Below, one piece after another: positions 27,101 to 64,000 of a stretch of DNA of 64,000 nt. Origin of the DNA: Pocillopora verrucosa (Eukaryota > Cnidaria > Anthozoa > Scleractinia > Pocilloporidae); NCBI RefSeq assembly GCF_036669915.1, contig NC_089315.1, forward strand, positions 23,441,936-23,505,935, read 5' to 3'. A program made the translations under genes and the position numbers. The notes beneath the pieces are model-generated. The model did not search any database. It saw only the letters and a program-made list of their open reading frames with translations, and was not told the origin of the DNA. The stretch's first letter is position 1. Every line of letters begins with the position of its first letter.

Positions 27101-30100
27101 TGCCTAACAACAACGGTGATTGTTATTCGTTTCTTGTATCCGCTGCAATATATGTGTCATGGACTCATTTTATACTGATACCCGAAACTACGAGTTGTCC
27201 CCTTTCGGCGAAATTGTCGCGCGAGTCGAAAAAAAAAACAAATCAGTGAAAAAAAAACCTGATAATGTTAGCGCGCCGTGCAGAACCTGGGAGTGAGGCA
27301 CACGAAAAGTACACCGGGCGGTCCTCGACGAAAAGCAGGGAGTGCTCGTAGTCTGCTGTACCCTTAAACTGACTGACTTGTAACTTTTTTTTAACAATAT
27401 CAACACATAGTTCAGCAAGTAGTGGATGAAAATATATCAGCTAAGGGGTGATATTATCGGCCAGTCAAATTATTGTAGTGTTTTGTTTAGTACTTTTTAA
27501 ATTTAATTTCAAAAGGCTCCATGAATGCATTGCCCAAGCGATTTTGTTAAAAAAACAAAACAAAATAAAAAAAAACAACAACACTCCCACTTTCAGAGTG
27601 CATTCCATTCAATATTTTATATGCTGCGCCGTTTTCAATGTTGCACTTAAGATTTACTCGTCTCTGTTTCAAGCACCATGAATGAAATAACTTTAACTGG
27701 GTAGCTGTCAGCACATGCATACCTTTGAATTAAACTGTCCTGAATAATATCATAGTTACACAATCCTAATTTCACGTTGAAAATAGAAACGGGTTCGCTC
27801 TTCTTCATGGAGATAGTCAAGTCATTCCGAAGGTATATGACTCAGCTTAAGAGATGAAGATGCGAGTGAAGTAGCTTTGGCTACGGAAGTGTTCATTGTA
27901 AATTCATGATTACAATCCTACAAATAGTGAGGGACATCTGCGTCATCACGAGCATGTAAACGCTTTTTAGAAGAAAGTATGTCAAAATAAATGCGTACTT
28001 GACTCAGCGTGAGATCAAGTTTTACAAGTTGGCTGGATATTGGTCTCGTTCCTTTTTTTGCCAAAAGATATCGAAAACAAATTCGGGACCTTTTTTTGTG
28101 GTTTTCTTTGTTTTGACTAGCGTCAGGTTGTGTTGTGTGTCTCAGCATTGCCATTAAAACTGTCAGAAAGGAGTTTTATTGCTAGATAAGAGATTTCTCA
28201 GAGGTTACGATGCATGGAAGAACTTTTTTTTGCGCCGGATCACAGGGAAGGAGTAGGCGAAGAGTGGCAATATAAGCTGACACAGACTATCATCTTAGTC
28301 ATTGAAAGGTCGTGGTCTTTATTGGATAGCGACTCCAAATCGTGAGACAAGCGATTACATGATCATCATCATGATATCCATGATGGACAGACGAATCTTT
28401 CCCGAAAATGATACTGAAACGATTTGTGGTTTGAATCAGACAATTATGTGAAACCATCGCAAGTGGTTCATTCAAACTCGTCATTGAAGGGTTTTAAAAG
28501 TTTATTTCCCTCCCGCCGCGATTAGCTTCATTATTTTGCGGATAGGGATTGTTACATGTGTATTTCAAATTTTAAGGAAATTAAATGTATTATAAGGTGT
28601 TTTAGTTGCCGAACCAATTGTCTAGAACAGACCTTCCTACTTGGACGTCACTGGGCCAAGTTCATATTCTTCTTGTTCAATTTGTGGCTGTGTGCATGCG
28701 GAGACAGTCATCGACCCAGAAGATAAGATACGGCGAAACTCGCTCCTGAATATAGAATTCATTCCTGCATATATGACGGGATTAACAGTGTTTGAAATGT
28801 AAAGAAAAAACATGCACAACAGTTCCAAATTTCTTGGCATGTGTGATACTAATGAAAAACGTCTTATTATGACTATGACCCAGAAAGGAATCCAACAAAC
28901 CAAAAAGGTAAAAACAACAATGAATAGCGACCTGCTCAGTCGAATTTCTTGAATGGAAATGCGCGCGTCGTTCCTTCTGAGTCCTCTCAACGCGGGAGAA
29001 ATCCCTGTCAGATGTTGACGAACAACTTTTAGAACTCTCGAGTAACCAAAAGTTGTGGCAACCAAAGGGATGACAAGAAAAAGTGTTAAAACTATTATGT
29101 AGTGGATGAACTTGGCACTTTCCCCAAGGTGTTTGAGAGAACATTGCGCATAGCCAGGCACAAACTCAAAGTCTTGCAATTTGGCCAGTTTTGGAATTGC
29201 GATGTAACAAGCCACAAAGAACCAGAGGAAGAGCACCCATAAACGAGACTTTCTGGGTGAAAATATTTTCTGGTAGGTTGTGTTTGGTTTGCACATACGA
29301 ACATATCGGTTCACAGCTGTTAAACCCATGGTTGCCGGTGAGACGTAGATGACGAAGATACTCATGAAGGCGTGAAATTGGCAAATGGTTTCTCCAAGCA
29401 ACCATTTTCCTGTGAACAGTATTATTTCACTGAGAGGCATCACAAAGACAGCGGAGAGCAAGTCGCTCACAGCCAATGCTATGATATAAAGATTCGTGGG
29501 GGTGCGTAATCTTGGATTTCTGTAAACAGATAAGCATACCATGATATTTCCTGCCAGTGACAGGATGTTTAAAATGACCAAAGAGGAGCCTTCGAAGATA
29601 ACCAGTGCTAAACTTCTTGATGCAAGATCGTCGGCCATCTTAGGTAACTGCACTTCCTTGTCTCAGTTATAGCTAACAGTGAACACAACGAGACTCTCGC
29701 TAAAAATCAAGTCAAAATGCTGATATATGGCCCGAAGCACTATTGCTGCCCATCAAAAACCGGAATACCGGCCAATATTTTAAAAGGAACCGCCCAAAAA
29801 ACCGATCTTAGGCCTGAGGGATAGGAAAGGCAAAGACCTTACAAAAAGTGGAAACAGCTCTTTTTGAGTCATTAAACCGATATTCGGTTTCGGATATCAT
29901 GACAAAATCCTAAATATGGGCATGGTAAATATGGGCACGGTAAGGAGTGCTTGTCGAAGTAAGGTCTAATAAAAACAGGAAATATCTGCCTCTAGCTAAA
30001 ATTAGTAAATCTGGGAATAACTTTGGCTGAGGCGCTCTTGAACTACATTCCTGTGTTCTGGTTTAGTGCTGTTTCCTCTCATTTATATTTAGAGATGTTT

Positions 30101-33100
30101 TTTGCTGTAAATATCTTAAATTAAAATAATGAAATTTAATTTAAATAATGTGTTTATGACTGTTTGTATTTTGTAAAACTACTTTGTAATTAAACTGCGA
30201 AGCGTAGCAAATTGCTCAATGATATCGTCCTCGAGGCGATAAGCGCTGGTTTTCATTCAAGTTGTACAACAAGGCAAGTTGTGCTTTCAGCCAAACGTGA
30301 CTGAAATGAAACGAAGACCTAAAGATTTCTCAAGTGTTTCAGGTTCTAAGTTGAAGCGTTTAAAATCGGAAGTGACTTATTTCCATCAGTATTTTTGATT
30401 TGTAGTAAATTGTAACTCGGACATTGTTTATGAACCAGTATTATGGAATGAAAGATAATTACAGTCAGAAACACAACCGTAGTAGTTATAATAATTGAAA
30501 AGTCAACCTAGACTGAACTCGAACCCATAATAGTCGGGCGATATTTTTGCAACTGAGATAGTGAAACAACTGTGAGGAAGTGATCTGTGTATCTCAGTTT
30601 TCGCAATACGCGCGTGAAGGGTGAATACAGCAAAAGTGAATCAATCGAAATGATATATTTCAATTGCGGAATAAAGATGCTCTTAGACTGATACCATTTA
30701 ACTGAAGCTAGAGACGAAATCGAAGTAGTTGTGAAAACGAAGGTGGAAAACACCATTCGACAGTGTGATATAACCAAGACTTAACAAGCCAACTGGGAGC
30801 TTGTCACGATAACAACTCTTTATTTCTTTTAACGAAAGATTTCGAGGATATTTTAACTTTTTTCCTCTCTTGGGGTTTTCACACTCCGAAGCAACGTCGT
30901 GATCACTCGAGCAAAACTGTGAGACGTACTGATAATTACAATTTGAGGCGGTACGTCTGCTATTACTGATGCAATTTTCCGATAGTAATCTTGATGACTG
31001 ACCATGGTAAAGAGCAAGTACTCAACTTTCCATTTGACTTAAAAGAAAGCCGATCCTCGATGATGATGATGATGATATTGATGATATTGCGATAAGCACA
31101 TAACTACTTCCTTATTAAATGGCAATTAATTAGAGTTCTCGTTGTTTCGAGTTACCTTCCCGACAACAACTCGAAAATAAAATATTTACTCTGAAAATGG
31201 CAGAAAATTGTTTCATTAAACTGCCGACATTGGACGATAATACTCGTAAACAGCCGATTGTTACGGAGTTACTTACTGAGGAGTCTCCATAGAGATCTTA
31301 CTTGCTCCAAAGACACAAATTTTGTGTGCACGAGCTGGAAAATCCGGAAACAGATTTTGACCGAATTCAGAAAACGAAAACCTGAATTCCTCTCCCTTAT
31401 TTTTGTAAGATGTTCGTACATGGATATTTTTTTCCTTTTTAGGGAATTATCCAAGGAACAGTTCCATACTTGGGCACATTTCTAACCGACCTAATGATGT
31501 TAGATGCCGCTTATCAAGATTTCACTGAGGTGAGAGGAACTGGGCATCATCATTCCTCCTCATTACTTAAGCCACCTTATTACGTAAGCCACCTCCCTCT
31601 TCCCGGCTATTTTACATATTAAATGTTGGACTGGACTCTGGACTCTGGACTCTGGACTCTGGATCTAGGGTCAGAATGGGTGTTAGGCGAGAAACACAGC
31701 GCTCGAAGTAGTCATCCCCAACCTAGCAACTGTTAAGGAAATCTGGGAAATTGCAGTGCGGGGGAGGGTGGGAGTTGGGAGGGGTGAGGTTTGTGTTGTA
31801 CCGGTGTCGTGCCTTTCACTCGGACTTGTACTCAGTCGAGACTTTTTTTTTACCTATCTGGAAAGGGAATCTTGGGAAGAAGGAAGAAAAAGTGGCTTTT
31901 TCTTCTTTCCTTGCCTTGATGCAACGCGAACTCGCTAATCCTTCCTATCAATCAGTGCGCAAATAAGAAAAAGCTGGGTACGAGTCTGCCTTTCACTTGA
32001 ATTGTATGCGGACTTACTTAACTTCACAGTCTACAAACGTATTTTTACCTTTTACATTCCCTTAAAATGTGAACAAAGTCATGAATTTCCCAAGGACGTT
32101 TTGCTTTCTTTTCCTAGGATGGCTTGATCAATTTTGAGAAAAGAAGAAAGGTAAGTTGAATATAGATGTTTGCTTTTTATGTAAGCCTTCTGAGAGTTAC
32201 AATTGATTTGTGTGTACTTTTAACCCAACAGGAGTTTGAAATAATCGCTCAAATAAAGCTGCTTCAAGAAGCGGCAAAGAACTATATAATCGTTCAGGAT
32301 GAAAAATTTCGACGTTGGTTTGATAACATCAAGACATTTACAGAATCAGAGAGGTTAGTTTACGTGGTAAATCGTTGTTAGGATAGAAATGGATCTGCCA
32401 GGAGAACTGGGTCGAGTTCACGAAATTGAGGCTAACTAGGAAAACGTTCTGGAAGAAACTCGTGAAACTCTTCTTTTTTTTAGCTGCTCGTATTACGAAG
32501 TCCCATCGTAAAGGAAAAAAAAAACTTTTAAAAGAGAATAGGAGCCGAAAAGGAAAAATCAAACCACGGGAAAAAAAAACATGATTGTTCGCCTGTGTTC
32601 TTTTTCCACTCAAATCTTACTAGTAAACCTCGACTTGATGTACTAGACGATCAAACGTATTGAACACGGGCTATTGAAGTATGGACGAGAGGAGCTGAGT
32701 CGAGAACCTGCGTGACACAACCGTCTGATCTAAGTCTTCTCTCGCCCAAAGCTTACGCTCCTCGCTTGCTCAATATCGAGAGAAAGCAGACTGTTAGTGA
32801 TATATACTGTGGAAGCTAACGTTGTGCTTCAGAGATAAAGTGTATTCCTAAACTGACTGGAAAACTTATTAAAAGAGGCGGACCCAAATCACAATTATAG
32901 TAAAATGGGCGTGCAGCCATCATTTAACGACTAAAAGTTCGTTCATTCATTCATGATTCATTTTGTATATTTTTGTTACTTTCCTCAGCTACCACTTGTC
33001 TTGTAAAGTTGAACGAGTGGAACTAAAGTATACGAAAAAGAAGAAGGAAACTAAAATAAGGTGTGCATCCGATTTTGCTGTTAACTATCCAATCAAGCCT

Positions 33101-35855
33101 CTAACAAAAGAGGAATATGAAGAGTTTAACTTCTCTAGTTTTAACAATCAGCGTTCGTTTTTGGTTTATGCTATAATGCCAGCCTTGTCCCAGGTTTTCC
33201 TTCTTAAAAATGTTAAGCCTGAAGCGTTCCGGGCAGTTTGAATCGTCTGTATCCTTACAATTCTCTCTTCCATCTGAGTTACCTTACCATGGTATCTATG
33301 ATGTTTTCCTACCTCAGTGAACGGCTTTTGCAATCTTTACTTAATCGCAATATTCAATTGAGTGTCGAAAGTGATGCAGGATTGGATAGGCTTTCTATTT
33401 CTTTTCTCTGATTGGTCGAGAAAAATCGCGCCTCCTCCGCTATCATTCAAATGCAAAAAATACTGGATTCAATCGCGTCTTAGTCTTAAGCGTTTTTCCG
33501 CATTTCAGCCAGGTTTCGTGTTTTTACTCTGAGTTTCCATTTCCTCTTTGTGATATTTTCCTTTGTCTTGATTAACCGCTGTAATTTCTTAGATCTTTGG
33601 TTATACGACACTTGTTTGAAACGCGCTCTGTTCTCAGTGACGCTTGAAATGGCTCAAAATCTCTTCACGTAGTCCCTTTCAGTGTTTCTCGTCGACACCT
33701 TTCAAAAAATTCGTTCAGAGAAATTTTCAATCGAGTGTCGTAAGTAAACTGCGATTTCATTGGTTTTGCTTTACTGCGCTCTGTAATTGGCTCAATGCAC
33801 TTTCACCACTCTCTTTACCAATCAGATGCAAAAACTGAAACCAATCACGACTTGGTTTCACTTTAAGGTCTTATTGGCCCCTAGAGTATTTTCCTTTCTT
33901 CTGATTGGTCGTCATGATTGCTCTGGTTTTGGTTTTATAACACTCTGTCGAAAAGTGCTCTAGGTAACGTCAGTTGTTGCTATTAATTTGTGTGGCAGAC
34001 GGATGCTCAGTGAACCAGACATCAGCAAATTGAATTTACTGACGCAAATCTCATCACAAAGTCTCTCTCCTCCTCCTGCTGATAAACAGTGCAAATCCAA
34101 TGAAAACTCTCCTGTCATGGCTCGCCACAAAAGAAATGTAAGTACAACTTTGGTGAGTGAGTCTGTTTGTTGTTTTTTTTTCTCTTGTTAACTCTTAACG
34201 CCCCAACATCAGTATGCATATTGTCCATACTGTTCTCCATACATATTCTAAAGCAATGGCGAGGAGAATTTGTCTAACCATCGAGAACCTCTTGAGTTTG
34301 TGATTTTTTTCCCTTTATTCTCATGACCTTAATGTTTGATATAGGGGTGATACTATTGGGAGAAATAATTTTGACTTAGGGGGAGGGTCAGAGGAGGCTC
34401 CGTGATATAATTATTATGATCAATAGTCTCCCCTTTATACTCTGTTGGTGACGACTGATTCCCCGTCCGTTCCCCCCGAAAACCATGTGATCCCCTCGAA
34501 AATCCTCCTATTCCCCCCCCCCCCTACCCAGCCCTCCCGCCCCCTTGGTGTGAGAAATAATGACTGGTCTCAACCGTAACCCTGAATTTTTCGTTTCAAA
34601 ATGTTTCGCGGGAAATGTTTCTGTAAGCCTCGACCTCGTGTGCTAGACCCAGGTCTCTTTGCCCGCGTCTAGTCATATTGAATAGGGTCAACCGCCTGAC
34701 TGACCGACTTGTTGCCTCACAGAACTCCGGCTCTTCCTCATCCTCCACGTCCTCCGGTGTGTCATCAGGATCAGATACGTCCTCGGTGCCAAAAAACTTT
34801 TCATTCTCCCTTCCCCGGTCACAGTTTGCTGGCTTGCCAATTGGCTCTAGGTCACCCCGCCTACGCAAGTCTAGAGGGGGTGTTTCGCGGAGGTCTTTAC
34901 CAGAACGACCGCGTCTTCCTCAGACGCCTCCTCCCGACAGTCCTTCCAATAGATCTGCACATGCTGGCTGTATTATTCGGGTCAGCATCGACGGACTGGA
35001 AGATACAAAATCTGGTGCTGGTGTTATCTACAAAGGGATTTGGGTAAGAATGTTACAAAGAAAAAACATTTTTGAAATTTAAAGCGCAAATCAATAAGAC
35101 AACTCATTATTTAGCTTAGCTCCCCTGTTCTATTTTAATTTTGACTCATTGTTTGTTTCTTGCGTTTTGTGCTCAATTAATATTGCAAAATGTTTTAGAA
35201 AGAAATTCTGAAAAATTCATAGAAATACCCTGACGGAGCTGTCAAATATTTATATTGCTTTGAACGTGAACTGGTTGTTTGTAGTAGATGCGACGGTTTG
35301 TCGAGAGAGACTGTTAACCAACTAAGGTCCAATCAGTAATTCTTCTACTTACTGCCATACTTTTCAATATTAATTAAACAGGAGAGTTTGGCCGTATTTC
35401 AAATTAAACCTTCCAACAAAAAAAAAATTTGTCTGCTGTTCTCTTAACCTGTTCTTCCTCTGGTTGTTAACAGCTTTCGGATGACGAGCGAACACCTGCT
35501 GTCATTCGATCGTGTTTGGAGAGACGAGAAATGAAGGGAGATCCAAGCGAGTATTTCCTTGTTCAAATTCTTGATAATGAAGGTAAGTCTGAGTTTAAAT
35601 GGGTGAACAGCTTGAACTCTTTTGAAGCTCGCGCTATGTTCGCACTCAGATCTTGCGCGGTCTGGGGTCTCCTTAAAGACATTAAGATTCAAACCAGACT
35701 TACCTGTTATTCCCTTACCTTGATTTTCTGATTTGTTTTCATTTGCAGGCGAACTAGTCATACCAGACAATGCGAATGTGTACTACGCCCTGAATTCAAG
35801 TATGGAATCTTTGCTGTTCAAACTCAAGAAAAAGGCAGATGAAAAGCCGAGCTGA
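18114..35855 (+). CDS. RalGDS/RGL-type Ral guanine nucleotide exchange factor, 17 coding exons
   Basis: The family links Ras-type GTPases to Ral by exchanging GDP for GTP on Ral at membranes. Exons: 18114-18158, 18709-19016, 20704-20766, 21460-21650, 22454-22605, 24709-24924, 25507-25610, 26402-26486, 26958-27047, 31443-31529, 32118-32150, 32232-32353, 32989-33060, 33999-34137, 34723-35043, 35474-35582, 35749-35855. The sum is 2244 nt, giving 747 aa, near human RGL1 (about 770). All phases agree. The REM domain (about 40-175) includes [18 protein letters not shown] and FMTTYRTFS. The CDC25 domain (about 244-505) includes [58 protein letters not shown] Ser-rich linker is followed by the RA domain (about 650-745, CIIRVSIDG ... 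[12 protein letters not shown]). The first exon is inferred from an ATG, a GTAAGT donor and phase 0. The weakest junction is the acceptor at 34723. The 4.4-kb intron after 27047 holds GPCR1 antisense. Downstream partial copies are pseudogenic. Confidence 0.93.
19645..20165 (+). repeat. Degenerate tandem repeat, about 4 units of 130-150 bp, RGL intron 2
   Basis: Units begin near 19648, 19776, 19926 and 20064. Each has GGAGGGTT or CAGGGTT, then GGAAGTTGAA, a TCTGCAAGG-like block and AAACA followed by ACGG. Spacing varies, so it is an old expansion. Confidence 0.75.
20369..20527 (+). repeat. Short interspersed MITE-like element, RGL intron 2
   Basis: It has CCCTTTACACCCTAATATCA at the left, the TATTCTCCATACTGTTCTCC core, and TCTAAGGGGTTAAAGGGCTAA at the right. 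The ends are roughly inverted. It is about 180 bp before the third coding exon. Confidence 0.8.
22100..22302 (+). repeat. Second-family MITE, RGL intron 4
   Basis: It opens AACCCTTCAACTCCCAAGAT and has a TAATTCCCCTTACTGTCTGC block like the element at 7051. It ends TGTTAAAGGGA. Confidence 0.7.
22990..23205 (+). repeat. Short interspersed MITE-like element, RGL intron 5
   Basis: This is a full-length-looking copy, with CCCTCGACACCCTGAGATCA at the left, a TATTCTCCTTACTGTTCTC core and a GGGGTTAAAGGGCTAA end. Confidence 0.8.
23330..23455. repeat. Inverted repeat, PLE-terminus-like motif
   Basis: GAGTGTTAGCCCTTTTTCAG and the following CTGACAAAGGGCTAATGCTC form inverted arms. The flank reads GTGGCCAATTTATGTTATTAA. 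The motif (GGGCTAACGCTCGAAA and GGCCAATTTATGT) recurs at 12080-12140 and at the Penelope-like remnant near 61760-61820, so it is probably a terminal piece of that element type. Confidence 0.6.
23484..23692 (-). repeat. Short interspersed MITE-like element, RGL intron 5
   Basis: This is a reverse-orientation copy. It starts TTAACCCTTGGGCCCTTGG and ends GGATGTAAAGGGTTTAA, with the complementary core GAACAGTATGGAGAA inside. Confidence 0.8.
26262..26333 (-). repeat. Truncated MITE fragment
   Basis: Only the end of a reverse copy remains: GAACAGTATGGAGAATATGC followed by a TGTAATGGGTTAA end. It lies just before the eighth coding exon of RGL. Confidence 0.65.
28637..29638 (-). CDS. GPCR1: intronless class A (rhodopsin-like) receptor nested in an RGL intron
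   Basis: This is a 333-aa single-exon receptor predicted to sit in the plasma membrane with seven helices. Visible class A marks are AGN in TM1, LAVSD in TM2, the TM3 cysteine (ETICQFHAF) with its ECL2 partner (YAQCSLKH), NRY instead of DRY at the end of TM3, CWIPFW in TM6 and NPVIYAG in TM7. The opsin retinal-lysine position in TM7 is a tyrosine, so it is not an opsin. NRY and general look recall melatonin-receptor-like cnidarian GPCRs, but the ligand cannot be assigned. The start is the ATG at 29638 (AAGATGGCC context), which aligns with the starts of GPCR3 and GPCR4; an extension upstream would need GTG. It lies antisense inside the RGL intron 27048-31442. Three relatives lie downstream. 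Confidence 0.93.
   Translation of the reverse strand: MADDLASRSLALVIFEGSSLVILNILSLAGNIMVCLSVYRNPRLRTPTNLYIIALAVSDLLSAVFVMPLSEIILFTGKWLLGETICQFHAFMSIFVIYVSPATMGLTAVNRYVRMCKPNTTYQKIFSPRKSRLWVLFLWFFVACYIAIPKLAKLQDFEFVPGYAQCSLKHLGESAKFIHYIIVLTLFLVIPLVATTFGYSRVLKVVRQHLTGISPALRGLRRNDARISIQEIRLSRSLFIVVFTFLVCWIPFWVIVIIRRFSLVSHMPRNLELLCMFFLYISNTVNPVIYAGMNSIFRSEFRRILSSGSMTVSACTQPQIEQEEYELGPVTSK
30506..30570 (-). repeat. tRNA-like SINE remnant upstream of GPCR1
   Basis: On the minus strand an A-box-like ATCTCAGTTGCAAAA is followed by a B-box-like GGGTTCGAGTTC at tRNA spacing. A related piece (AACAAGCCAACTGGGAG) lies at 30784-30800. The equivalent in unit 3 is at 57946-58010. Confidence 0.55.
31629..31664 (+). 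repeat. 7-bp minisatellite (GGACTCT)n, RGL intron
   Basis: About five tandem GGACTCT units are present. The paralogous position in unit 2 (near 41344) has about one unit, so copy number changed after duplication. Confidence 0.85.
34190..34376 (+). repeat. Short interspersed MITE-like element, RGL intron 14
   Basis: It has CAGTATGCATATTGTCCATACTGTTCTCC-type core sequence, a CGAGGAGAATTTGTCTAACC block and a GGGTGATACTATTGGGAGAAA end. The same insertion is shared by unit 2 (43888-43986), so it predates the duplication. Confidence 0.75.
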
Positions 35856-36299
35856 GGTATGTTTTCGAGTTTGTTTCCATGTTTATTGTGAAGTTGCGTT
35901 TTACAAGTATCGTTTCGACAAGCTGAATTGAAGAAGGACAAGTTCTTATTAGTGAAAATCATTGGAATGGCCGGTGAATACTTTCGCCTTTGTCGTAAAT
36001 GAAATTTCCGGGAAACGTTTTATTGTGACAATGTAAAGTTGTTAATTAAACATTTTTTTTCTCGTGTAGTTGTCAGAAAAAGGGTCAGGCAGTGTGGTAT
36101 TTCATAAACCTAATTTATACCCCATTCACTCCACGGCTAAAATACGTTTTGAATTGTTTTGCTGATAGAAAGGGCTTAAACTGATGTTTATCGACTTCAC
36201 ATTTTGCTTAATTAAAATAGAATGAAGTGATTACTCGAACCAGTCTTCCAGTTTTCTAGTGATATTTTTAATTAGTCCAAACTGGTGGAACTGAACATG

Positions 36300-36730
36300 T
36301 TCTGCCGTTGTGAATGGGGCTTAGTTACTCAATTATGCCTGAGTTGTAGATCTCTGGTGTAATGTTTGCTATTCGATAAAATATCAACATCTCATTTATA
36401 AAATTTGCATGATTTTTTTTGAACTTCCACTAGCAACTTTTAACTCCACCAGTATTAGAGTAAATTATTACTTTACAATCTTTTAATGTATGTCACCATG
36501 GTAATATTACAATCTTTTTCTCACAATCATATAATACAGTAATATTACAATTATTTGATACAGTTTTTTGGTCCCCATTCAGCCTCCCCCACTTAAAAAG
36601 TGGAACTTAAAACATGTATTGCCGTTGTGAATGGGGCGTTAGTTAATCAATTATGCCTTAGTTATAGATCTCTGGTATCGTGTTTGCTATTCGATAAAAT
36701 ATCAACATGTCATTTATAAAATGTGTATGA
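36300..36730 (+). repeat. Local duplication downstream of RGL
   Basis: About 115 bp at 36300-36415 and 36615-36730 are near copies, sharing GCCGTTGTGAATGGGGC, GTAGATCTCTGG-like sequence and GATAAAATATCAACAT. A third copy in unit 2 is at 47008-47130. No ORF is seen. Confidence 0.8.
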
Positions 36731-37317
36731 CTTTTTATTAACTTCAAAATTAACGGATGGAAAAGTGACATCTTATGACAGGATTAAGATATGTTTTTAT
36801 CCACTTCCTTGTCAGCCATCCCTGCAGATTGCCGATGCTGAATGAGGTTCTCGCCTCGCAAGGAATAGAAACTCTTTGACCAAGAAGTTGCTACGAGGTG
36901 CCCGACATTTTACAATTTTAGCCAGAGGCAATTCATTCGTACACAAATTTCCGGCCAATCGTCCCCCGAGCGGTAACAACTTCAGAACAACATGATGCAA
37001 GAGCGCATTGTGATTGGCTAGTCAAATGTGCACCTGACTTTTGCTAATATTTGCTGGGTTAGCATTTTATGCGCATGCGTTTCAATGCTCTATTGATCAT
37101 ACACAATTTTTGTAAATAAATTTTAAAAATTAAATGATCTTACGTCAGCCCAGAAATGTATTTTTAGGATTTAGTTAAATCTCATAAACAGTACTAAGAT
37201 AATTGAGGTAGATAATACATTTTTAATTGTATTATATGGAAAAGAGACATAAATCTAAATTTTTACGTTGGTATTTTGTAAATCGATTTTGAATTGCTCT
37301 ATACATATATATTTTTT

Positions 37318-38455: not shown

Positions 38456-38749
38456 AAGGGAGAAAATATAAAATGCTACATAAATAAAAGTTTTTAATAG
38501 ATATTATGAACTTCGTCATCGTTATTAATACTACTTTAATTTTACTATTATCGTTATTATTGTGATTTCTTGCCGTAAATACTTTTTGTCAACTCGAATC
38601 CTTGTTTAGGAATTTTCGCCAGCCGATGATCTGCGATTTTATTTGCTGAACCATTTCTACAAATATAAACTTTGTTTTCTCAAGCTAATTTCTTTTTCCA
38701 GGGAGTTACGGAGAAGCTGAGGTAATTGACAGTCTATTAAATATTGTAA

Positions 38750-48097: not shown

Positions 48098-48131
48098 GTG
48101 AGTAACGTGTAAGCAGCTGATCGGCTATATC

Positions 48132-53542: not shown

Positions 53543-53589
53543 ACTTATTATCTAAAAACAGACAAACAACTCTACATCAACATGAATAC

Positions 53590-54384: not shown

Positions 54385-54737
54385 TCTTGAATCTCTCAGA
54401 AAGCAAAAAAAGAAAAACGATCGTGAAAAAAGAAACGAAAAATTATCCAAAACGAAACGAAAAATTATCCAAACTTGATTAAGATTAGCGGAGCTCGTAA
54501 AGTAACGTCCGTCCTGACCAACTCACCGCTGACCACTTAATTCCAAGGATCCAGTACCATCCAGGTTTCCCAGTTACCCTGCTCACAGGGTCTAGTTAAT
54601 GTTTATCTCCCTTCCGCCTCGACTAGCTTCGCTATTTTGTGGCTAGGGATTTTTACATGTGTATTTCAATTATTAAGGAAAATAAATTTATCATAAGGTG
54701 TTTTAGTTGCCGAACCAATTGTCTGTAACAGACCTTG

Positions 54738-55745
54738 TTACTTAGATGTCACTGGGCCAAGTTCATGTTCTTCTTGTTCAATTTGTTGCTGTTTGCATGC
54801 GGAGAAAGTCATCGACGCAGAAGAAAAGATACGGCGAAACTCGCTCCTGAATGTAGAATTCATTCCTGCATATATGACGGGATTGACAGTGTTTGAAATG
54901 TAAAGAAAAAACATGCACAACAGTTCCAAATTTCTTGGCATATGTCTTACAAATGAAAAACGCCTTATTATGACTATAACCCAGAAAGGAATCCAACATG
55001 CCAAAAAGGTAAAAACAACAATGAATAGCGACCTGCTCAGTCGAATTTCTTGAATAGAAATGCCGCGGCGCGCGTCGTTCCTTCTGAGTCCCCTCAACGC
55101 AAGAGAAATCCCTGTCAGATGCTGACGAACAGCTTTCAGAATTCTCGAGTAACAAAAAGCTGTGACAACCAAAGGGATGACAAGAAAAATTGGTAAAACT
55201 ATTAGGTAGTGGATAAGCTTGGCTTTTTCCCCAAGGTGTTTGAGAGAACATAGCGCATAACCAGGCACAAACTCAAAGTCTTGCAATTTGGCCAGTTGCG
55301 GAATTGCGACGTAACAAGCCACAAACAACCAGACGAAAATCACCCATAAACGAGACTTTCTGGGTGAAAATATTTTCTGGTAGGTTGTGTTTGGTTTGCA
55401 TATACGAACATATCGGTTCACAGCTGTTAAACCCATGGTTGCCGATGAGACGTAGATCACGAAGCTACTCATGAAGGCGTGAAATTGGCAAATGGTTTCT
55501 CCAAACGACCATTTTCCTGTGAACAGTATTGTTTCACTGAGAGGCATCACAAAGACAGCGGAGAGCAAGTCGCTCACAGCCAATGCTATGATGTAAAGAT
55601 TAGTGGGGGTGCGTAATCTTGGATTTCTGTAAACAGATAAGCATACGATGATATTTCCTGCCAGTGAGAGGAGGTTTAAAATGACCAAAGAGGAGCCTTC
55701 TAAGATAACCAGTGCTAAACTTCTTGATGCAAGATCGTCGGCCAT
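54738..55745 (-). CDS. GPCR3: intronless class A receptor, 335 aa
   Basis: This full-length member of the array has the same landmarks as GPCR1: AGN, LAVSD, the TM3-ECL2 cysteine pair, NRY, CWIPFW, NPVIYAG, and tail ELGPVTSK. It differs by a two-residue insertion (Arg-Gly) in intracellular loop 3, caused by 6 extra GC-rich bases near 55063, and by several TM5/ECL2 changes (GEKAKLIHYLIVLPIFLV). It shares PQLAKLQDF with GPCR2, while GPCR1 and GPCR4 have PKLAKLQDF. The ATG has the same AAGATGGCC context. The 3' flank is interrupted by the LINE about 0.14 kb after the stop, which may affect its 3' end. Confidence 0.93.
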   Translation of the reverse strand: MADDLASRSLALVILEGSSLVILNLLSLAGNIIVCLSVYRNPRLRTPTNLYIIALAVSDLLSAVFVMPLSETILFTGKWSFGETICQFHAFMSSFVIYVSSATMGLTAVNRYVRICKPNTTYQKIFSPRKSRLWVIFVWLFVACYVAIPQLAKLQDFEFVPGYALCSLKHLGEKAKLIHYLIVLPIFLVIPLVVTAFCYSRILKAVRQHLTGISLALRGLRRNDARRGISIQEIRLSRSLFIVVFTFLACWIPFWVIVIIRRFSFVRHMPRNLELLCMFFLYISNTVNPVIYAGMNSTFRSEFRRIFSSASMTFSACKQQQIEQEEHELGPVTSK

Positions 55746-56057
55746 CTTAGGTAACTGCGCTTCCTTGTCTCAGTTGTAGCTAACAGTGAACACAACGAGA
55801 CTCTCGCTAAAAATCCAGTCAAAATGCTGAGATATGGCCCGAAATACTATTGTTACCCATCGTCCAATATTTCCATAAAAAGAAACCGCAAAACCTTATC
55901 TTATCTTAAAATCTTAGACTCGAGAGAAAGAAAAGGCAATGACCTTACAAAAAGCAAAAACAGCTCTTTTTGATTCATAAAACCGATATTCGCTTTGGAT
56001 ATCATGACAAAATCCCAAATATGGGCATGGTAAGGAGTGCTTGTCGAAATAAGGTCT
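55746..56057. other. GPCR3 5' flank, conserved among units
   Basis: This matches GPCR1 29639-29966 and GPCR4 63719-64000, with shared blocks CTTCCTTGTCTCAGTT, AACCGATATTCG and GATATCATGACAAAATCC. It probably holds the receptor promoter. No gene is seen. Confidence 0.65.
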
Positions 56058-57432
56058 TTTATTGTTTTTTTAGAGGGCACGGTAACGAATCTTGCAATCT
56101 GATTGGTTCTTTACCCGGTCAGTATTTTCCTATCTCTGCCCACGGGCCACGGTAACGCTTTCGTGAGTCGCCGAGTACATCCCAACTTTCGTTGTCATTT
56201 TTCATAAATATACCTCGTTTTCCGGCTGGGCAGTATTTTTAAGCAAACACGTCGGTCACTACCTCAAGCCGATAAATAACTTATGAATCCTCCCTTTTCT
56301 CTCTATCAAATCACTTTGGTTGACAGAAAAATATTGGTTTCAGAATAAATTTGTATAAACAATAGTGTCATTACGTTGGTTGACAAGCGGCCTAAAAACT
56401 GTCTGCAATTAATTTTAATCGTTCACAAAAAGTACCCAGAAAGTTGAAACGTGAGGTATTTGGTTACAGTTAAACTGAACGATGGAACTTTCATTCATTT
56501 AATATCTGAATTTTCTCGAGCAATTTGTTCATAGTAAAAAAAAAGCGAGCGAAGTTTTAATTTAAGTTCTACAACAAATATACGCTCCTGGTGAGTCTTT
56601 CCAATTCCGTTCAATTTGGACATTTGTACCTTAACTTGGACAACAGAAATTGAAGGAATTGAGAAAAGGCTGCATTAAATTCCCTTGTGTCTCGTTGGAG
56701 TGTGCCGTTCGAATTTAGTTTTTGTGAAGGAAAGATCAGAGTTAAACACGCCATTACAGCAAACAAACGAGCAAACTCCCACAACTTCAAAATAAAAAAT
56801 TGAATTTACTCACAATTATTTTCCTCGCCGTTTACTTAATGAACAGAGGTAAATCTTCGTACATGAATGAATGGTCGATGAGAGTAAATAATACTTTCCG
56901 TTAGATCATTAACTGATTTTTAAGAAAACATTGTCGTGACAGTCCTTGCCAAACTAGTTCTGTTGGTTTTCAAATGTTCCTACGAGTTTTTTTTCTTGCG
57001 CGCTCTCGAATTGACAGGTGTCAGATTGTGACAGATACTTGTAAAAATAATGTTTCAAAGTTTGTTTGGAAGCCTTTTAAATCACCTTTATCGTTACGGA
57101 AATGAAAATGTTTCGCTGAGGCATCTCTCTTAAATTTGCATCACCTCTATTTTAACTACCATTTACCCACTCAAAAATTGTTCAGTTTATGGAAGATCTT
57201 GCCGTATTTACGGCCATAAGTCATTCGGGTTCTTTCGGAAAGAATTTCGTCAAGTTTAAAAACAATAAATATGTTATTTACCGGCTAAGGGTCGGTCCGT
57301 ATGGTGAAAAACTGTGACCTCGGTCTTGAAAATGCTGCCCTCGGCCTACGGCCTCGGGCAGTATTTTCAAGACCTCGGTCACAGTTTTTCACCATACGGA
57401 CCTCCCAGCCGGCAAATAACATATATATATAA
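56058..57432. mobile_element. 1.37-kb insertion in the GPCR3 upstream region
   Basis: In unit 1 the flank reads AAGGTCTAATAAAAACAGG without interruption (about 29961-29979). In unit 3 AAGGTCT (56051) and CAGGAAATATCTG (57434) are separated by about 1.37 kb. There is no long ORF. The right end is a long hairpin (57269-57424) next to an AT dinucleotide run. It is likely a non-autonomous element of unknown class. Confidence 0.7.
57269..57424. repeat. Long hairpin with arms of about 70 bp
   Basis: The left arm (ATATGTTATTTACCGGCT, then GTCCGTATGGTGAAAAACTG) pairs with the right arm (ACAGTTTTTCACCATACGGA, then GCCGGCAAATAACATAT) around CGGCCTACGGCC. Only a few mismatches are seen. Confidence 0.9.
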
Positions 57433-57945
57433 GCAGGAAATATCTGCCTCTTGCTAAAATTAGTAAATCTTGGAATAACTTTGGCTGAGGCGCTCTTGAA
57501 CTTCAGTCCTGTTTTCTGGTTTAGTTGTGTTTACTCCCATTTATATTTAGAAACTTTTTCTGCTGTAAATATCTTAAATTAAAGTAATGAAATTTAATTT
57601 AAAGAATGTGTTCATGACTGTTTGTATTTTAAACTGCAAAGCGTGGCAAATTGCTAAATGATATCGCTCTCGAGGCTATAAGCGCTGGTTTCTATTCAAG
57701 TTGTGCAACAAGGCAAGTTGTGCTATTAGCCAAACGTGACTGAAATGAAATGTAGACCGAGAGACTTCTCAAGTGTTTCAGGTCTCTAAACTGAAGCGTT
57801 TAAAATAAAAAGCGACCAATTTCCATCAGTATTTTTGAGCTTTTAGTAAATCGTAACTCAGACATTATTTAAGAATCAGTATTATGGACTGAAAGATAAT
57901 AAGTCAGGAACACAACTTTAGTAGTTATAAAAGTGGAAAAGTCAG

Positions 57946-58010
57946 CCCCAGACTGGACTTGAACCCATAATAGTCGGGCAATACTTTTGCAACTGAGATA
58001 GTGAAACAAC
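57946..58010 (-). repeat. tRNA-like SINE remnant, unit 3
   Basis: This is the paralogue of 30506-30570. The B-box-like GGGTTCAAGTCC is better preserved here, with the A-box-like ATCTCAGTTGCAAAA upstream of it on the minus strand. Confidence 0.55.
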
Positions 58011-58799
58011 TATGAGGAAATGATCTGTGTATCTCAGTTTTCGCAATACGCCCGTGAAGGGCGAATACAGCAGAAGTGAATCAATCGATATCATATATTT
58101 CAATTGCGGAATAAAAATGCTCTTAGACAGATACCATTTAGTTGAAGCTAGAAACAAAATCGAAGTAGTTGTGAAAATGAAGGCGGAAATACCATTCAGG
58201 CTTGGACAGATTTCGAACAAACGACCCTCGGGCGATGTCGACGGTGTGATATAACCAAGAGCTGACAAGCCAGCTGGGAGCTTGTCACGATAATAACTCT
58301 TTATTTCTTTTTACGAAAGATTTTGGGGATGTTTTAATTTTTTTTTCTCTCATGGAGTTTTTACAATCCGAAGCAACATCATGATCACTCGAGCAAAACT
58401 GTGAGACGTATTCACAATTACAATTTGAGGCGGTACATCTGCTATTAGTGATACAATTTTCTGATAATAATCTTGATGAGTGACCATGGTAAAGAGCAAG
58501 TACTCAACTTTCCATTTGACTGGAAAGAAAGCCTCTATTTTTATTTTATTATTTTTTTCTTTTTTCCTTATTCGTTGTATAACAAGAAGAAAAGTGAGAT
58601 AGTTTGCCCCGCAAATAGCTGCAAAGCTAATCGTGGCGGGGCAAAACAAGTTCATGAATAAGTGACATAGATTATCTAATATCTAAAGACAAGGAGTCAC
58701 GGACTCTTAAATGGTAGCACAGAAAAAGAAAAGCAAACATTTAGACCCTTAGCAAGTGTTTCTGCGTACCTACTTTTTTAATAATCATAAGGATCTGAA

Positions 58800-61052
58800 T
58801 ATAGTTATCCTCTTTTTCTTAGATATCAAATAGCAATTTGCGGAGAACTCTTGAAAGCTTTCTTTGGAAGATCCGATATATAACTTTGTATCTTATTCCA
58901 CAGCTTTACTCCGAACTGAGAGAAAGAATTGTTTTGTATTTCTATCTCGAATTTTTAACATAGAACTTTCCAGACGTAGATGATCGTATATTGTATGAGT
59001 GAATATTAGACGTTTTCTGAAATAAATTTAACATGTTTACTGGGGCTTTATCATTATTGATATCGTGCATTAAGGTTGATACGGACTCATAATAAAGAAA
59101 AGTTCTTGGGAGCAATTGTTAGCTTGGGGAAATAAAGGAATTGCATGGTCATGCCAGTCTGCGAAGTACAGCAGACGAAGAGCTCTTTTCTAAAGAATTA
59201 GAATTCTATTAAGATAAGTTTTGCATGCCTGACCCCAGGCAGCGAGACCATAGGTTAAATAAGGATGAATTAGTGATGAAATAGATATTCAGTAGTAATG
59301 GTCCAGGTACAGAGTGGTGTAGCTTTGCAAGAAGCCCAACATTTTTACTAATTTTTGTAACAATAGAATCAATGTGGTATTTCCAAGAGAGATGCTGATC
59401 AATAAGAACGCCAAGGTATTTTCTGTAAACTTTAGACTCGAGACGAACATATTTATTCTTTTCATCATCAAACATGCAAAGTTTTGGTTGGTAAGAAAAT
59501 CGCTTTTGGTAAGGATAAAAAATTACAAAGTTGGACTTGTTAATATTAAGTGTTAGTTTGTTGGCTGCCAACCGGTTACAAAGGTTTTGTTGCTCATTGT
59601 TGACGATTGTTTCAAGATCTTTCAGATTTTTTTCCGCATACAAAATGTTAGTGCTGTCTGTAAAAAGGTAAAACCTAAATTTATTTGAGCATCTGTGGAC
59701 ATCATTGACATATAGCAAGAAAAGCAATGGTCCAAGAATTGATCCTTGTGGAACACCACATCCAACGACAGCTCTATCTGATATATGATGGCCTACTTGC
59801 GTTGTTTACGAAAGCCATAGTGATTGAGCCTATCAAGCAAAATGTCGTGATCGACTGTGTGGAAGGCTTTTTTATGATCAATGAATACTCCTCAAGATAG
59901 CAATCGTTGATTCATGTTTGTCTGTATATCATGAACAATGTCCAATATTACGTGTTGGGTTGAATGCCCCTTACGAAAGCCGTATTGTGAGGAATACAAA
60001 CGTTCGTGTTTCTTTATATAACTCGTCAATCTGCTGTAGATTATTTTCTACAATACTCTATTAAAATTTGATAGTAAAGAGATAGGTCTGTTGTTGTTTG
60101 CGTCAGTATCATCGTCACTCACTGGCGTAATTTTTAGCAATTTTGAGCTTTGATGGATAAGTTCCAAGTCTGATAGATATATTGAGTATCTCCGAAAGAA
60201 CAGGAGCTGTGACGGCACTTGAATACTTGAGCAGTTTAGTTGGTGAGGAGTATAAACCATATGATTTATCATTCGGTACAAGTAATATTTCTGACAGTAA
60301 TTCTTCGGGTAAGACAGGTTGAAAAAAGAAGGATGAAATTGGAGATTTGCACTTATTAACAAAGTCTAGATGATGTTTTTGGGGAATGGGCAGGTTATTG
60401 GCAAGTTTGTTTCCGACTGTTGCAAAGTGTTCATTAATAATGTTAGGTATCCGCGAACCTTCCTTAATAATTTTGTTGCGATTATTAAAATCCTTTAATG
60501 CAGATATGACTTTTAAGTTTTTTTTCCGTCGATGTAAAAGTTCATTGATTCCTTGCCAGGTTTTTTTTCATTTTGCCCATATTATTTTCGAAAAACGTAT
60601 CATAATATCTCCTTTTGCTTAAGCGTGTCAGTGTACAAATTTTATTTCTATAGTGTTTGTACCTAACTTTGTCTCCAGTTGCATATAATTTATTTCTAAC
60701 CTTAATCGCCGCTTCAATTCCATTAGTTAACCAAGGTTTAGATAGCTGCTTTGCTTTGCGATTAGATCATTTTTTCATGGGGGCGTGTTTGTTAACAATT
60801 GTATTATACTTGTTGTAAAACGATGAAAACAATTTGTTCACACAATCTGTTCCATTTGCAATTATTCGATTCCATTCAACTTCAGACAGCTCATCGTTAA
60901 AGCGATCAGCGGAGAATCTTGAATAGTCACGTATTTTTATATTTTTAACTTGTTGAAGTTTATCTTCCGTTGACGTTGTGATATAGAACTGCGAAAAATG
61001 ATTACTAATATATTGAGACGATTCGCACTTAAGTAGATCTATATTAAAACGT
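58800..61052 (-). mobile_element. Decayed, 5'-truncated CR1/L2-like LINE
   Basis: Fragments of ORF2 run on the minus strand from FNIDLLK of the endonuclease (about 61050) to QFGVKLWNKI near the C-terminus (about 58910). The best open piece is 59727-59209 (172 aa), where the RT catalytic FADD reads FTDS. Other frames hold YRPIS-like and GFRK-like remnants with stops and shifts. It is a different, older family than the intact LINE at 50.0-54.6 kb. Its 5' end abuts RGL intron sequence at about 61052. Confidence 0.85.
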
Positions 61053-61450
61053 GTTGTACCAGTGTCGTGCCTTTCACTTGCACTCGTACTCGGTCGTCAT
61101 TTTTTTTCTATCTGCAAAGGAATCTTGGGAAGGAGGAAGGAAAAGTGGCTTTTTCTTCCTTCCTTCCTTACCCTAATGCAACGCGAGCTCGCTAATCCTT
61201 CCCATCAACCAGTCCGCAAATAAGAAGAAGTTGGGTACGAGTCTGCCTTTCACTTGAATTGTATGCGGACTTACTTAACTCCACAGTCTACAAACGTATT
61301 TTTACCTTTTACATTCCTTAAAATGTGAACAAAGTCATAAAATTTCCCAAGGACGTTTTGCTTTCTTTTCCTGAGATGGCTTTTTTATTTTAAGAAAATA
61401 AGACAGGTAAGTTGAATATAGATGTTTTCTTTTTATGTAAGCCTTCTAGG
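61053..61450 (+). pseudogene. Third partial copy of RGL intron/exon 11 sequence
   Basis: This matches RGL 31794-32190, starting GTTGTACCAGTGTCGTGCC. It includes a dead copy of the 33-nt exon at about 61374-61408: the acceptor is changed to CTGAG, and the frame reads to TAA after about 8 codons. It is the only RGL exon trace left in unit 3. Confidence 0.85.
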
Positions 61451-61454
61451 AGAC

Positions 61455-61835
61455 AAATAGATAGGGACATCCAAACCAGCCGCTGGACACTTCAATCTCC
61501 CTGATCATTCTAAACAACATGTGGCAGTTTGCGGCCTTTCCTTACATCTAGGCAGTTCGGAAAGCCGCAAAACACTAGAACATGAAAAATTTATCTTCCA
61601 AATCGGCACTCTTAATCCCCACGGTATCAACGAGCGCTTTTCATTCAACTAATTTATTCTGGTTTTCTCGTCACCATATTCCCACCAATAGCGTAGCACC
61701 ACTTCCTGCATATAAACAAACACACAACCCACAATTCCTCCAATTGCTTTGACGAGGGGCTAACGCTCGAAACGTCAGCTTTTTTACTCTTTACGGTGGC
61801 CAATTTATGTCAGTTGTTAACACTAATTTACCTTT
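61455..61835 (+). mobile_element. Penelope-like element 3' fragment (endonuclease tail)
   Basis: The frame at about 61468-61650 reads AGHFNLPDHSKQHVAVCGLS, LGSSESRKTLEHEKFIFQIG and TLNPHGINERFSFN, then stop. This is the usual C-terminal end of GIY-YIG endonuclease domains in Penelope-like elements. It is followed by GGGCTAACGCTCGAAACGTC and GGTGGCCAATTTATGTCAG, a terminal motif also seen at 12080 and 23330. The upstream RT part is absent. Confidence 0.75.
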
Positions 61836-62716
61836 TTTTTCAGTTGCGTATGTGATTATCTAAAAGCCATAGAGAAGACGAAGTTTTAATGGTTTTCAAA
61901 AGGTTTTTTTAGAATGGAGTTCGCCTAATCAGGAAAAATTTCGTTGCAAAAGTGTCATTTGCCTGTTAAGATTTGCCAACTAATCAATGATGAGGAAAAA
62001 ATAAATTTGACTAATGGGCCTAAAACATTTAAGAAATTCACGAGAAAAACAACACTAGAGGTAGGGAAGTTATCGGGCAATGTTCCCGTTTCTATGTGCT
62101 CTTTCTCAGCAATTGGTTTAACGATTTTCTTCCTCGTTTGCAATTATTGAGTACAAAATTTTTTTATTGAAGAGTGAAGTGTTGGATTGATTGCTGAGTC
62201 GAGCGTCAAAATATATATCTACTACGGCAACTGTACAAGTTCTATATTATTGGGGTCTTTTTATTATTATTACCATTTTGATAAAGTAATGAAAATTAAA
62301 CCTTTTTATGCAAATGCCTTGTTATCTCTATGCAGTTGAAAGAAAAAAAAAATACACCGCCGGTACAGTTTTTTGAGGATTTCCTATTTTGTCTTCAAAG
62401 AATCTTAGACTCCTTTGAGACTATTTCTTAGAGTTACATGAGCACTCTTTTTGAATCCATAAATAGCATAAATGATGAGCTCACCAGGAAAATTGTGTCT
62501 TATTCGACATTTGAATTAGATTATTATGCAAAACTTTCGTAATTTGTTCATTCCAACTTGTCATTGAAGAATTTTTAATGTTTATTTCCCTTCCGCCTCG
62601 TTTAGCTTCGCTATTTTGTGGGTAGGGATTGTTACATGTGTATTTCAATTGTTAAGGAAAATATGTTTATTGTAAGGTGTTTTAGTTCCCGAAACAATTG
62701 TCTGGAACAAACATTG
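61836..62716. other. Spacer and GPCR4 3' flank (unit 4 start)
   Basis: No gene is seen. 61836-62330 matches the RGL downstream spacer 37318-37800, and 62340-62716 matches 38750-39163. Here the two are joined directly, without the SINE dimer that separates them between units 1 and 2. Confidence 0.75.
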
Positions 62717-63718
62717 TTACTCGGACGTCACTGGGCCAAGTTCATGTTCTTCTTGTTCAATTTGTCCCTGTGTGCATGAGCACAAAGTCATCGACCCACA
62801 AGATAAGATACGGCGAAACTCGCTCCTGAATGTAGAATTCATTCCTGCATATATGATGGGATTGACAGTGTTTGAAATGTAAAGAAAAAACATGCACAAC
62901 AGTTCCAAATTTCTTGGCAAGTGTGATACTAATGAAAAACGTCTTATTATGACTATAACCCAGAGAGGAATCCAACATGCCAAAAAGGCAAAAACAACAA
63001 TGAATAGCGACCTGCTTAGTCGAATTTCTTGAATAGAAATGCGCGCGTCGTTCCTCCCGAATCCTCTCAACGCGGGAGAAATCCCTGTCAGATGTTGACG
63101 AACAACTTTTAGAACTCTCGAGTAACCAAAAGTTGTGGCAACCAAAGGGATGACAAGAAAAAGTGTTAAAACTATTATGTAGTGGATGAACTTGGCACTT
63201 TCCCCAAGGTGTTTGAGAGAACATTGCGCATAGCCAGGCACAAATTCAAAGTCTTGCAATTTGGCCAGTTTTGGAATTGCGATGTAACAAGCCACAAACA
63301 ACCAGAGGAAAAGCACCCATAAACGAGACTTTCTGAGTGAAAATATTATCTGGTAGGTTGTGTTTGGTTTGCATATGCGAACATATCGGTTCACAGCTGT
63401 TAAACCCATGGTTGCCGGTGAGACGTAGACCACGAAGATACTCATGAAGGCGTGAAATTGGCAAATGGTTTCTCCAAGCGACCATTTTCCTGTGAACAGT
63501 ATTATTTCACTGAGAGGCATCACAAAGACAGCGGAGAGCAAGTCGCTCACAGCCAATGCTATGATATAAAGATTCGTGGGGGTGCGCAATCTTGGATTTC
63601 TGTAAACAGATAAGCATACCATGATATTTCCTGCCAGTGAGAGGAGGTTTAAAACGACCAAAGAGGAGCCTTCTAAGATAACCAGTGCTAAACTTCTTGA
63701 TGCAAGATCATCGGCCAT
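62717..63718 (-). CDS. GPCR4: intronless class A receptor, 333 aa
   Basis: This full-length array member has the same landmarks: AGN, LAVSD, TM3 cysteine ETICQFHAF with ECL2 cysteine, NRY, CWIPLW and NPIIYAG. Across ECL2 and TM5 ([20 protein letters not shown]) it is identical to GPCR1, although GPCR2 and GPCR3 lie between them. The tail ends in VTSE rather than VTSK. The ATG at 63718 is in the shared AAGATGGCC context. The ligand is unknown. Confidence 0.93.
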   Translation of the reverse strand: MADDLASRSLALVILEGSSLVVLNLLSLAGNIMVCLSVYRNPRLRTPTNLYIIALAVSDLLSAVFVMPLSEIILFTGKWSLGETICQFHAFMSIFVVYVSPATMGLTAVNRYVRICKPNTTYQIIFSLRKSRLWVLFLWLFVACYIAIPKLAKLQDFEFVPGYAQCSLKHLGESAKFIHYIIVLTLFLVIPLVATTFGYSRVLKVVRQHLTGISPALRGFGRNDARISIQEIRLSRSLFIVVFAFLACWIPLWVIVIIRRFSLVSHLPRNLELLCMFFLYISNTVNPIIYAGMNSTFRSEFRRILSCGSMTLCSCTQGQIEQEEHELGPVTSE

Positions 63719-64000
63719 CTTAGGTAACTGCGCTTCCTTGTCTCAGTTGTAGCTTAAAGTGAACGCAACGAGAAAAAGCAGCACACTGCTAAAAATCAAG
63801 TAAAAATGCTAATATATGGCACTATTGTTGTCCACCAAAAACCGGAATACCGGCCAATATTTCCATATAAAGAAACCGAAAAAACCACGGATCTTACGCT
63901 TAAGAGGAAGAAAAAGCAAAGATCTTACAACAAGCAAAAACAGCTCTTTTTGATTCACGAAACCGATATTCGGTTTTGGATATCATGACAAAATCCAAAA
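63719..64000. other. GPCR4 5' flank, runs off the window
   Basis: This is homologous to the GPCR1 (29639-29915) and GPCR3 5' flanks, ending in GATATCATGACAAAATCC, so the repeat unit continues beyond the window. Confidence 0.75.

Follow-up and report, generated by a model that had tools for sequence, protein, structure and literature searches.

The window analysed here is a 64,000-nucleotide stretch of the Pocillopora verrucosa genome (G000:C4:23,441,936-23,505,935). It contains a predicted gene of the RalGDS/RGL family that harbours, in one of its introns and on the opposite strand, a predicted class A G protein-coupled receptor (GPCR) gene. From this intron onwards the locus continues as a tandem array, in which further copies of the receptor alternate with copies or remnants of the 3' half of the RGL gene. 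The sequence examined comprised the window together with 10 kb upstream and 50 kb downstream of it, and window coordinates are used throughout, including those larger than 64,000. The genome searched consisted of 353 Mb in 52 contigs.

The RGL gene and the receptor in its intron

Exons of the predicted host gene are located on the + strand, from 18,709 to 35,855. The 5' half of the gene (18,709–27,047) is not repeated in the array; it includes the RasGEF_N exon (18,709–19,017), RasGEF exons at ∼24,709, 25,507–25,611 and 26,403–26,486, and exon X2 (26,958–27,047), the last one before the receptor-containing intron. The 3' exons X3–X10 (31,443–35,855) are all open, with X3 at 31,443–31,529, X4 at 32,118–32,150, X5 at 32,232–32,354, X7 at 33,997–34,137 (the ends of X5 and X7 are approximate), X8 at 34,723–35,043, X9 at 35,474–35,584 and X10, stop codon included, at 35,751–35,855. 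When ten single open stretches were scanned alone, five matched RasGEF_N, RasGEF or RA, two of them above the curated cut-off. The joined host exons (674 residues) matched the Pfam domains RasGEF_N (7.7e-11), the complete RasGEF domain (1.3e-51) and RA (4.9e-8), in this order. The best match among solved structures was to RGL2 (7e-57), with the RA part matching RGL, RGL1 and RalGDS. Both the domain order and these matches identify the predicted host product as a member of the RalGDS/RGL family. A genome-wide RasGEF search, whose counts are minimum values, listed 33 matches, among which each of the two upstream RasGEF exons at this locus was represented once and a fragment matching X3 at least four times in the array; tblastn retrieved X3 five times, once in inverted orientation. 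The complete set of RGL domains is found only with the 5'-most unit of the array.

Receptor 1 (28,637–29,638, − strand) is an intact single-exon frame of 333 amino acids. It lies antisense within the intron of 4,395 bases that separates X2 from X3 (27,048–31,442), and AG and GT signs flank both exons. This 4.4-kb intron divides the RasGEF domain of the host and also contains the left duplication breakpoint, at 28,429. Receptor 1 is therefore predicted to be a nested gene on the strand opposite to its host, positioned between the end of X2 (27,047) and the start of X3 (31,443); an antisense position in an RGL intron had been proposed in an earlier note on this DNA.

Class A GPCRs are characterized by D2.50, a D/E-R-Y motif in transmembrane helix (TM) 3, CWxP in TM6 and NPxxY in TM7. 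The corresponding motifs of receptor 1 are LAVSD, CWIP and NPVIY, with NRY instead of DRY in TM3. Receptors 1, 3 and 4, which were covered by the profile scan, matched the full 7tm_1 profile (PF00001) with E values of 8.4e-43, 2.5e-46 and 4.2e-42, respectively; receptors 5 and 6, being 85–86% identical to receptor 1, are assigned to the same class by this likeness. Profile and motifs thus identify the predicted array products as class A (rhodopsin-like) GPCRs. Labelling them as melatonin receptors was considered and rejected: melatonin receptor 1A, the top match among solved structures (E value of 4.4e-31), and the beta-3 adrenergic receptor, which comes next (7.6e-31), score nearly equally, and for this reason no ligand is assigned.

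The receptor family is large, with 118 matches scored out of 2,687 genome candidates, six of which are the array itself. Related loci (L022–L045) on contigs C3, C4, C5, C9 and C14 yielded one-piece matches 43–64% identical to receptor 1; 22 of these 24 have no internal stop, and many are clustered. The closest intact relative outside the array, among the matches listed, is at C5 414,323–415,243 (64% identity). At a distance of ∼5 kb from it there is a broken relative (C5 409,269–409,962), which was found by DNA search only and is 71–75% identical at the DNA level. The intact and the broken relative, side by side at C5:409,269–415,243 (L015, L022), represent a possible source locus. A cluster of at least 20 receptor matches, which could serve as an array for comparison, is located at C3:2.23–2.79 Mb.

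Six collinear units with a common junction

Self-comparison of the sequence revealed a tandem array extending from 28,429 to ∼90,150 and cut by the window end at 64,000. It is composed of six collinear units in the same orientation with a common junction, apart from one inverted segment in unit 5 and from unit 3, in which the junction is represented by its left side only. Spacer, receptor and RGL exon segments are collinear between the units over hundreds to thousands of bases at ∼76–95% identity (mostly 82–95%), which is far above chance. Unit 1 (28,429–38,955; 10.5 kb) contains receptor 1, the intact RGL 3' half and its 3' flank. The lengths of the other units vary. Unit 2 (38,956–48,203; ∼9.2 kb) carries the junction, and unit 3 (48,204–62,508, left end approximate) consists of ∼8 kb plus a 6.3-kb insertion of a long interspersed nuclear element (LINE). 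Unit 4 (62,509 to ∼70,292) starts in the window and continues past its end; unit 5, starting at 70,293, and unit 6 (84,641 to ∼90,150) are beyond it. Private rearrangements include, besides the LINE insertion, the inverted segment in unit 5 and the loss of ∼5 kb from unit 6, and non-coding DNA differs between units by ∼5–21%. When unit 1 was compared with the sequence on either side of the array (38 kb upstream, 24 kb downstream), only a dispersed repeat was matched.

These results confirm the array that the earlier note had described, and enlarge it. At least four GPCR copies had been claimed, and six are present once the 50 kb downstream is included. Copies of RGL exons alternate with the receptors in all five later units, although unit 3 has only a one-exon relic, and the duplicated block, put at about 10 kb, corresponds to the 10.5 kb of unit 1. 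The self dot-plot that had been proposed as a check does display collinear spacer, receptor and RGL exon homology between the units.

Five of the six receptors have open frames. In addition to receptor 1, these are receptor 3 (54,738–55,745, − strand; intact, 335 amino acids, with a two-residue insertion), receptor 4 (62,717–63,718, − strand; intact, 333 amino acids) and, beyond the window, receptors 5 (70,468–71,469) and 6 (84,817–85,818). The openness of receptors 1, 3 and 4 had been noticed before, and now extends to the last two. Receptor 2 (39,167–40,093, − strand) is a pseudogene, in which residues 1–24 of the 333-residue frame are missing and one internal stop is present.

The RGL exon copies of the later units, hereafter passengers, are in a different state. 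Seven exons were followed through the five later units, and 14 of the 35 possible copies were found: X3 in units 2, 4, 5 (inverted) and 6, X4 in units 2 and 3, X5 and X7 in unit 2, X8 in unit 5, X9 in units 2 and 5, and X10 in units 2, 4 and 5. In unit 2 (40,295–46,568, + strand), X3 (40,295), X9 (44,698) and X10 (46,464) are open, X4 (41,805) has lost its acceptor, X5 (41,919) is frameshifted, X7 (43,699) contains two stops and X8 is missing. The X4 relic of unit 3 (61,375–61,408, + strand; approximate and judged by eye) is degraded and its acceptor is changed. Frame lesions affect five of the 14 copies (X5 and X7 of unit 2, X8 and X9 of unit 5 and, by eye, X4 of unit 3), and a complete RGL 3' half is available from no later unit. 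Exons of the host have thus been dragged along and have decayed, as the earlier note had it.

The junction that joins the host intron to DNA 3' of RGL recurs in units 2, 4, 5 and 6 with the same kind of motif, TTCGAC followed by RYTTGAATTAG (TTCGAC/RYTTGAATTAG). Its left parent, in the intron, reads TTTGTG-GTTTGAAT, and its right parent, which is unduplicated and lies past unit 6 in the stretch from 90,142, reads TTCGTC-GTTTTGAT. The parents have GTTT in common, a microhomology of ∼4 bp. The recurring junction is best read as a single founding junction with microhomology, which would afterwards have been copied by exchange between units. Close to the left breakpoint, a stretch of ∼100 bases (28,466–28,586) matches ten other places in the genome at 71–83% identity and is a dispersed repeat. 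Founding of the array by homologous recombination between two copies of this repeat was rejected: the repeat is located ∼37 bases inside the left breakpoint, and the array's right end yielded no copy of it.

Constraint, decay and possible exchange in the array

Passengers carry 5 lesions in 464 codons (X4 of unit 3 excluded), compared to 2 in the 1,975 codons of all six receptors (Fisher P = 0.004). The contrast is sharper for the five open receptors, with 0 lesions in 1,667 codons (Fisher P = 0.0005), but since these were picked for their openness, the six-receptor figure is the fairer one. For the ∼120 substitutions on the receptor tree, a simple simulation started from receptor 1 predicts ∼3.7 stops in a neutral frame (P of none, 0.022). 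Neutrality would also entail 7–10 indels, at rates of 0.06–0.08 per substitution assumed from the flanks; a single one, in frame, is seen. Receptor frames are therefore kept.

Amino acid sequences of the receptors tell a different story. The codon model used to estimate omega, the ratio of nonsynonymous to synonymous substitution rates (Ka/Ks), was checked with eight simulated runs per value and recovered 0.12–0.29 for an omega of 0.2, 0.47–0.69 for 0.5 and 0.86–1.52 for 1.0. Omega is 0.88 for the five open receptors (grid 95% interval 0.65–1.2), which is not below 1 (likelihood ratio test [LRT] statistic of 0.49 against 1), nor is the value of 0.85 obtained with all six; the ten pairs of open receptors range from 0.72 to 1.21. 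As controls we used the 24 related loci, 23 pairs of which are over 60% identical. Omega in these pairs is 0.15–0.76 and falls below 0.6 in 22 of them, the remaining pair (L039/L042, 0.76) being as high as the lowest array pairs. Five close sets, comprising 15 of the 24 loci and having tree lengths of 0.15–0.59, gave omegas of 0.27, 0.49, 0.44, 0.25 and 0.53; L027, L029, L032 and L044 (pairs 0.35–0.48) and the loci without a close partner were left out of this test. Omega of the array exceeds that of the five sets pooled (LRT 15.6, one degree of freedom). Taken singly, three of the sets differ from the array (P = 1e-5, 6e-4 and 0.011) and two do not clearly do so (P = 0.050 and 0.074). The array receptors thus look relaxed or diversifying. 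A two-ratio test that included the closest intact paralogue gave an LRT of 105 but was discarded as not usable, since the length of that branch had reached its upper bound.

For the RGL exons, one omega over all copies is 0.44, and a split assigns about 0 to the host lineage and 0.65 to the passengers. The codons are few and this split is not significant (two-ratio LRT 2.0). The 3' half belonging to the host itself seems to be under constraint. The earlier note had taken the decay of the passengers as a sign of selection on the receptor only. This interpretation is partly supported: receptor frames have indeed stayed open better than those of the passengers, whereas the proposed Ka/Ks comparison, with 0.88 for the receptors, 0.65 for the passengers and about 0 for the host, reveals no receptor-only constraint and does not separate receptors from passengers.

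Ordinary purifying selection on the receptors, with neutral passengers, is accordingly a rather unlikely reading, though not one without merit. Five open frames out of six, with neither the frameshifts nor the stops expected of neutral copies, are what it would predict; receptor coding DNA differs by 4–9%, compared to a corrected flank divergence of 6–23%; and model M1a, which has a class of fixed sites, fits the five open copies better than the single omega of M0 (LRT 4.5). It is at odds with an omega that is indistinguishable from 1 and above that of the related sets. Moreover, half of the pairs have low coding-region divergence at synonymous sites as well, and amino acid constraint alone therefore does not account for the lower coding divergence. 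Somewhat less doubtful, but still tentative, is the alternative that gene conversion between units homogenises the receptor coding regions and so helps the frames to stay open without strong selection on each copy. Synonymous divergence (dS) is below flank divergence in five of the ten receptor pairs, namely the four with receptor 1 and the pair 3/4 (bootstrap fraction of 0.026 or less), and most markedly so for receptors 1/4 (0.060 vs 0.188; 0 of 2,000 bootstraps). Between units 1 and 4, divergence is mostly 1–7% in the coding region and jumps to 12–19% just outside both of its ends, while dS of the RGL exons in units 1/2 is not below intron divergence (0.168 vs 0.135). Against this, the other five pairs display no clear difference between dS and flanks (0.084–0.40), and a few hundred bases out the 5' flank of units 1/4 is back to 7–11%, so that part of this steepness reflects a local maximum. 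A run test on silent sites is weak, its best P of 0.009 (pair 1/4) being uncorrected for ten pairs and the flank of units 5/6 ending ∼40 bases too far left. The array is mosaic in a further respect. The block stretching from unit 4 X10 up to receptor 5 diverges by 2–7% from its counterpart between unit 5 X10 and receptor 6, whereas divergence between the flanks of these two receptors, once the start codon is passed, amounts to 13% over the nearest 300 bases and to 16% farther out. Such a pattern is as expected of exchange between units, and gene conversion or exchange may be regarded as plausible but not proven.

Continued use of the passengers as alternative 3' ends, spliced from the single 5' half, is very unlikely. 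X3 is open in all four of its passenger copies and X10 in all three, and the passenger omega of 0.65 is not clearly 1; however, short exons remain open by chance, units 4 and 5 have a GC donor at X3, and no later unit has a full set. Unit 6 is left with only X3, unit 4 with only X3 and X10 and unit 3 with only the X4 relic; unit 5 has its X3 in inverted orientation, and in unit 2 the X4 acceptor is lost and X5 and X7 are broken. Even less credit can be given to an assembly artefact, arising from haplotypes or misjoined repeats. Tandem repeats are hard to assemble, but the whole array resides in one 31-Mb contig, the 124 kb contain zero N, and the units differ both in their non-coding sequence and in structural changes private to each.

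Adaptive change was looked for among the receptor sites. In the open copies, model M2a assigns an omega of 3.0 to 16% of sites, but its improvement over M1a is not significant (LRT 3.5 for the five open copies and ∼4.9 for six). Concentration of receptor differences in the ligand pocket was rejected: 10 of the 35 pocket positions vary, compared to 87 of 333 overall. Ral activators of the host's kind can act downstream of receptors. An improbable though attractive extension would be a one-sided amplifier, in which the host pins the 5' end and the array grows 3'-ward, coding segments being exchanged among fast-diversifying receptors as the non-coding DNA drifts apart, and in which receptor divergence is an adaptive diversification of ligand recognition or signalling.

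Proposed duplication history and its known counterparts

The observations are very probably best explained by tandem duplication of a nested receptor with headless host pieces as passengers, followed by relaxed or diversifying evolution of the receptors. In the starting state, an intronless class A GPCR gene would have been antisense in the RGL intron that divides the RasGEF domain. A tandem duplication with non-homologous, microhomology-type breakpoints, one in the receptor intron and the other ∼3 kb 3' of RGL, would then have copied the receptor, the RGL 3' half and the 3' flank. In a tandem duplication with its left end within the host, the 5' half with its presumed promoter would stay on the first 3' half, leaving the host whole and all further copies headless; this continued linkage of the 5' half to the first 3' copy would be the reason why RGL survives. 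Subsequently, unequal exchange among the units may have brought their number to six, with insertions, an inversion and deletions added along the way. The headless RGL pieces would decay, and the receptors, presumably expressed and functional, would mostly hold open frames as their amino acid sequences diverge fast, as expected of redundant receptors, relaxed or diversifying.

Several points weigh against this history. Unit 3 retains only the left part of the junction flank, followed by the LINE insertion. Support in the receptor tree is weak (56–73%), so that any order of duplications read from it would be tentative. The history, including the presumed unduplicated state, is read from one genome. 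The RGL gene model is a prediction from sequence, and at the host locus neither X6, expected between X5 and X7, nor the RGL 5' end was found. Finally, an omega near 1 would be equally compatible with receptors that have become dispensable.

Other elements are found in and around the array. The LINE-type retrotransposon (48,265–54,597, − strand; 6.3 kb) is located in the 3' flank of receptor 3 and has two open reading frames on the − strand, ORF1 (53,590–54,522; 310 codons between stops) and ORF2 (50,324–53,551; 1,075 codons between stops), the latter with endonuclease and reverse transcriptase domains. An empty-site comparison revealed that the unit 3 flank resumes past the element where it was interrupted; the LINE is possibly full-length and recent. 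Further fragments, reverse-transcriptase-like by eye (58,927–60,831 and 73,115–75,023), occupy comparable relative positions in units 3 and 5, are 89–90% identical, and were probably inserted before these units separated. Upstream of the listed host exons, open stretches at 12,794–15,208 resemble T-box transcription factors by eye, but the one that was scanned (14,618–15,208) gave no match. Downstream of the array (L009–L013, ∼93,411–107,368) there is a different single-exon GPCR-like frame (101,149–102,168), flanked by fragments at 93.4 and 107 kb that are peroxiredoxin-like by eye.

Tandem duplication with passengers is a known mechanism, and the locus is a tidy example of a known route of gene family growth. 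This instance is new to the literature searched: judging by titles and the openings of abstracts, none of the open-access papers that the searches listed deals with a nested receptor amplified together with a portion of its host gene. Two features set this locus apart: one half of a host gene, itself still apparently whole alongside, is the passenger, and the receptors have preserved their frames without preserving their sequences. The array shows why a nested gene can multiply without breaking its host. Furthermore, since receptor, host and headless pieces have one duplication history, a single array allows neutral decay to be compared with the maintenance of frames and the divergence of receptors. 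The raised omega relative to the related receptor sets provides a specific clue to relaxed or diversifying selection that can be put to the test.

Within the same genome, the array resembles the related class A receptors in sequence (43–64% identity to receptor 1) and departs from them in its omega of 0.88, compared to 0.25–0.53 in the five close sets. Among nested genes, those on opposite strands have been studied in Caenorhabditis elegans (PMC12274878). They share with receptor 1 the position in a host intron and the opposite direction; unlike them, the nested gene described here has been amplified, and the later units are without a whole host around the receptor. In Acropora corals, genes are reported to expand in tandem through non-allelic homologous recombination, their neighbours hitchhiking with them (PMC12314368). 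Recurrent tandem duplication there, as here, multiplies a gene family, with neighbouring DNA and transposons carried along; in the Pocillopora array, by contrast, the hitchhiker is half of the receptor's own host gene, and the founding junction displays microhomology only.

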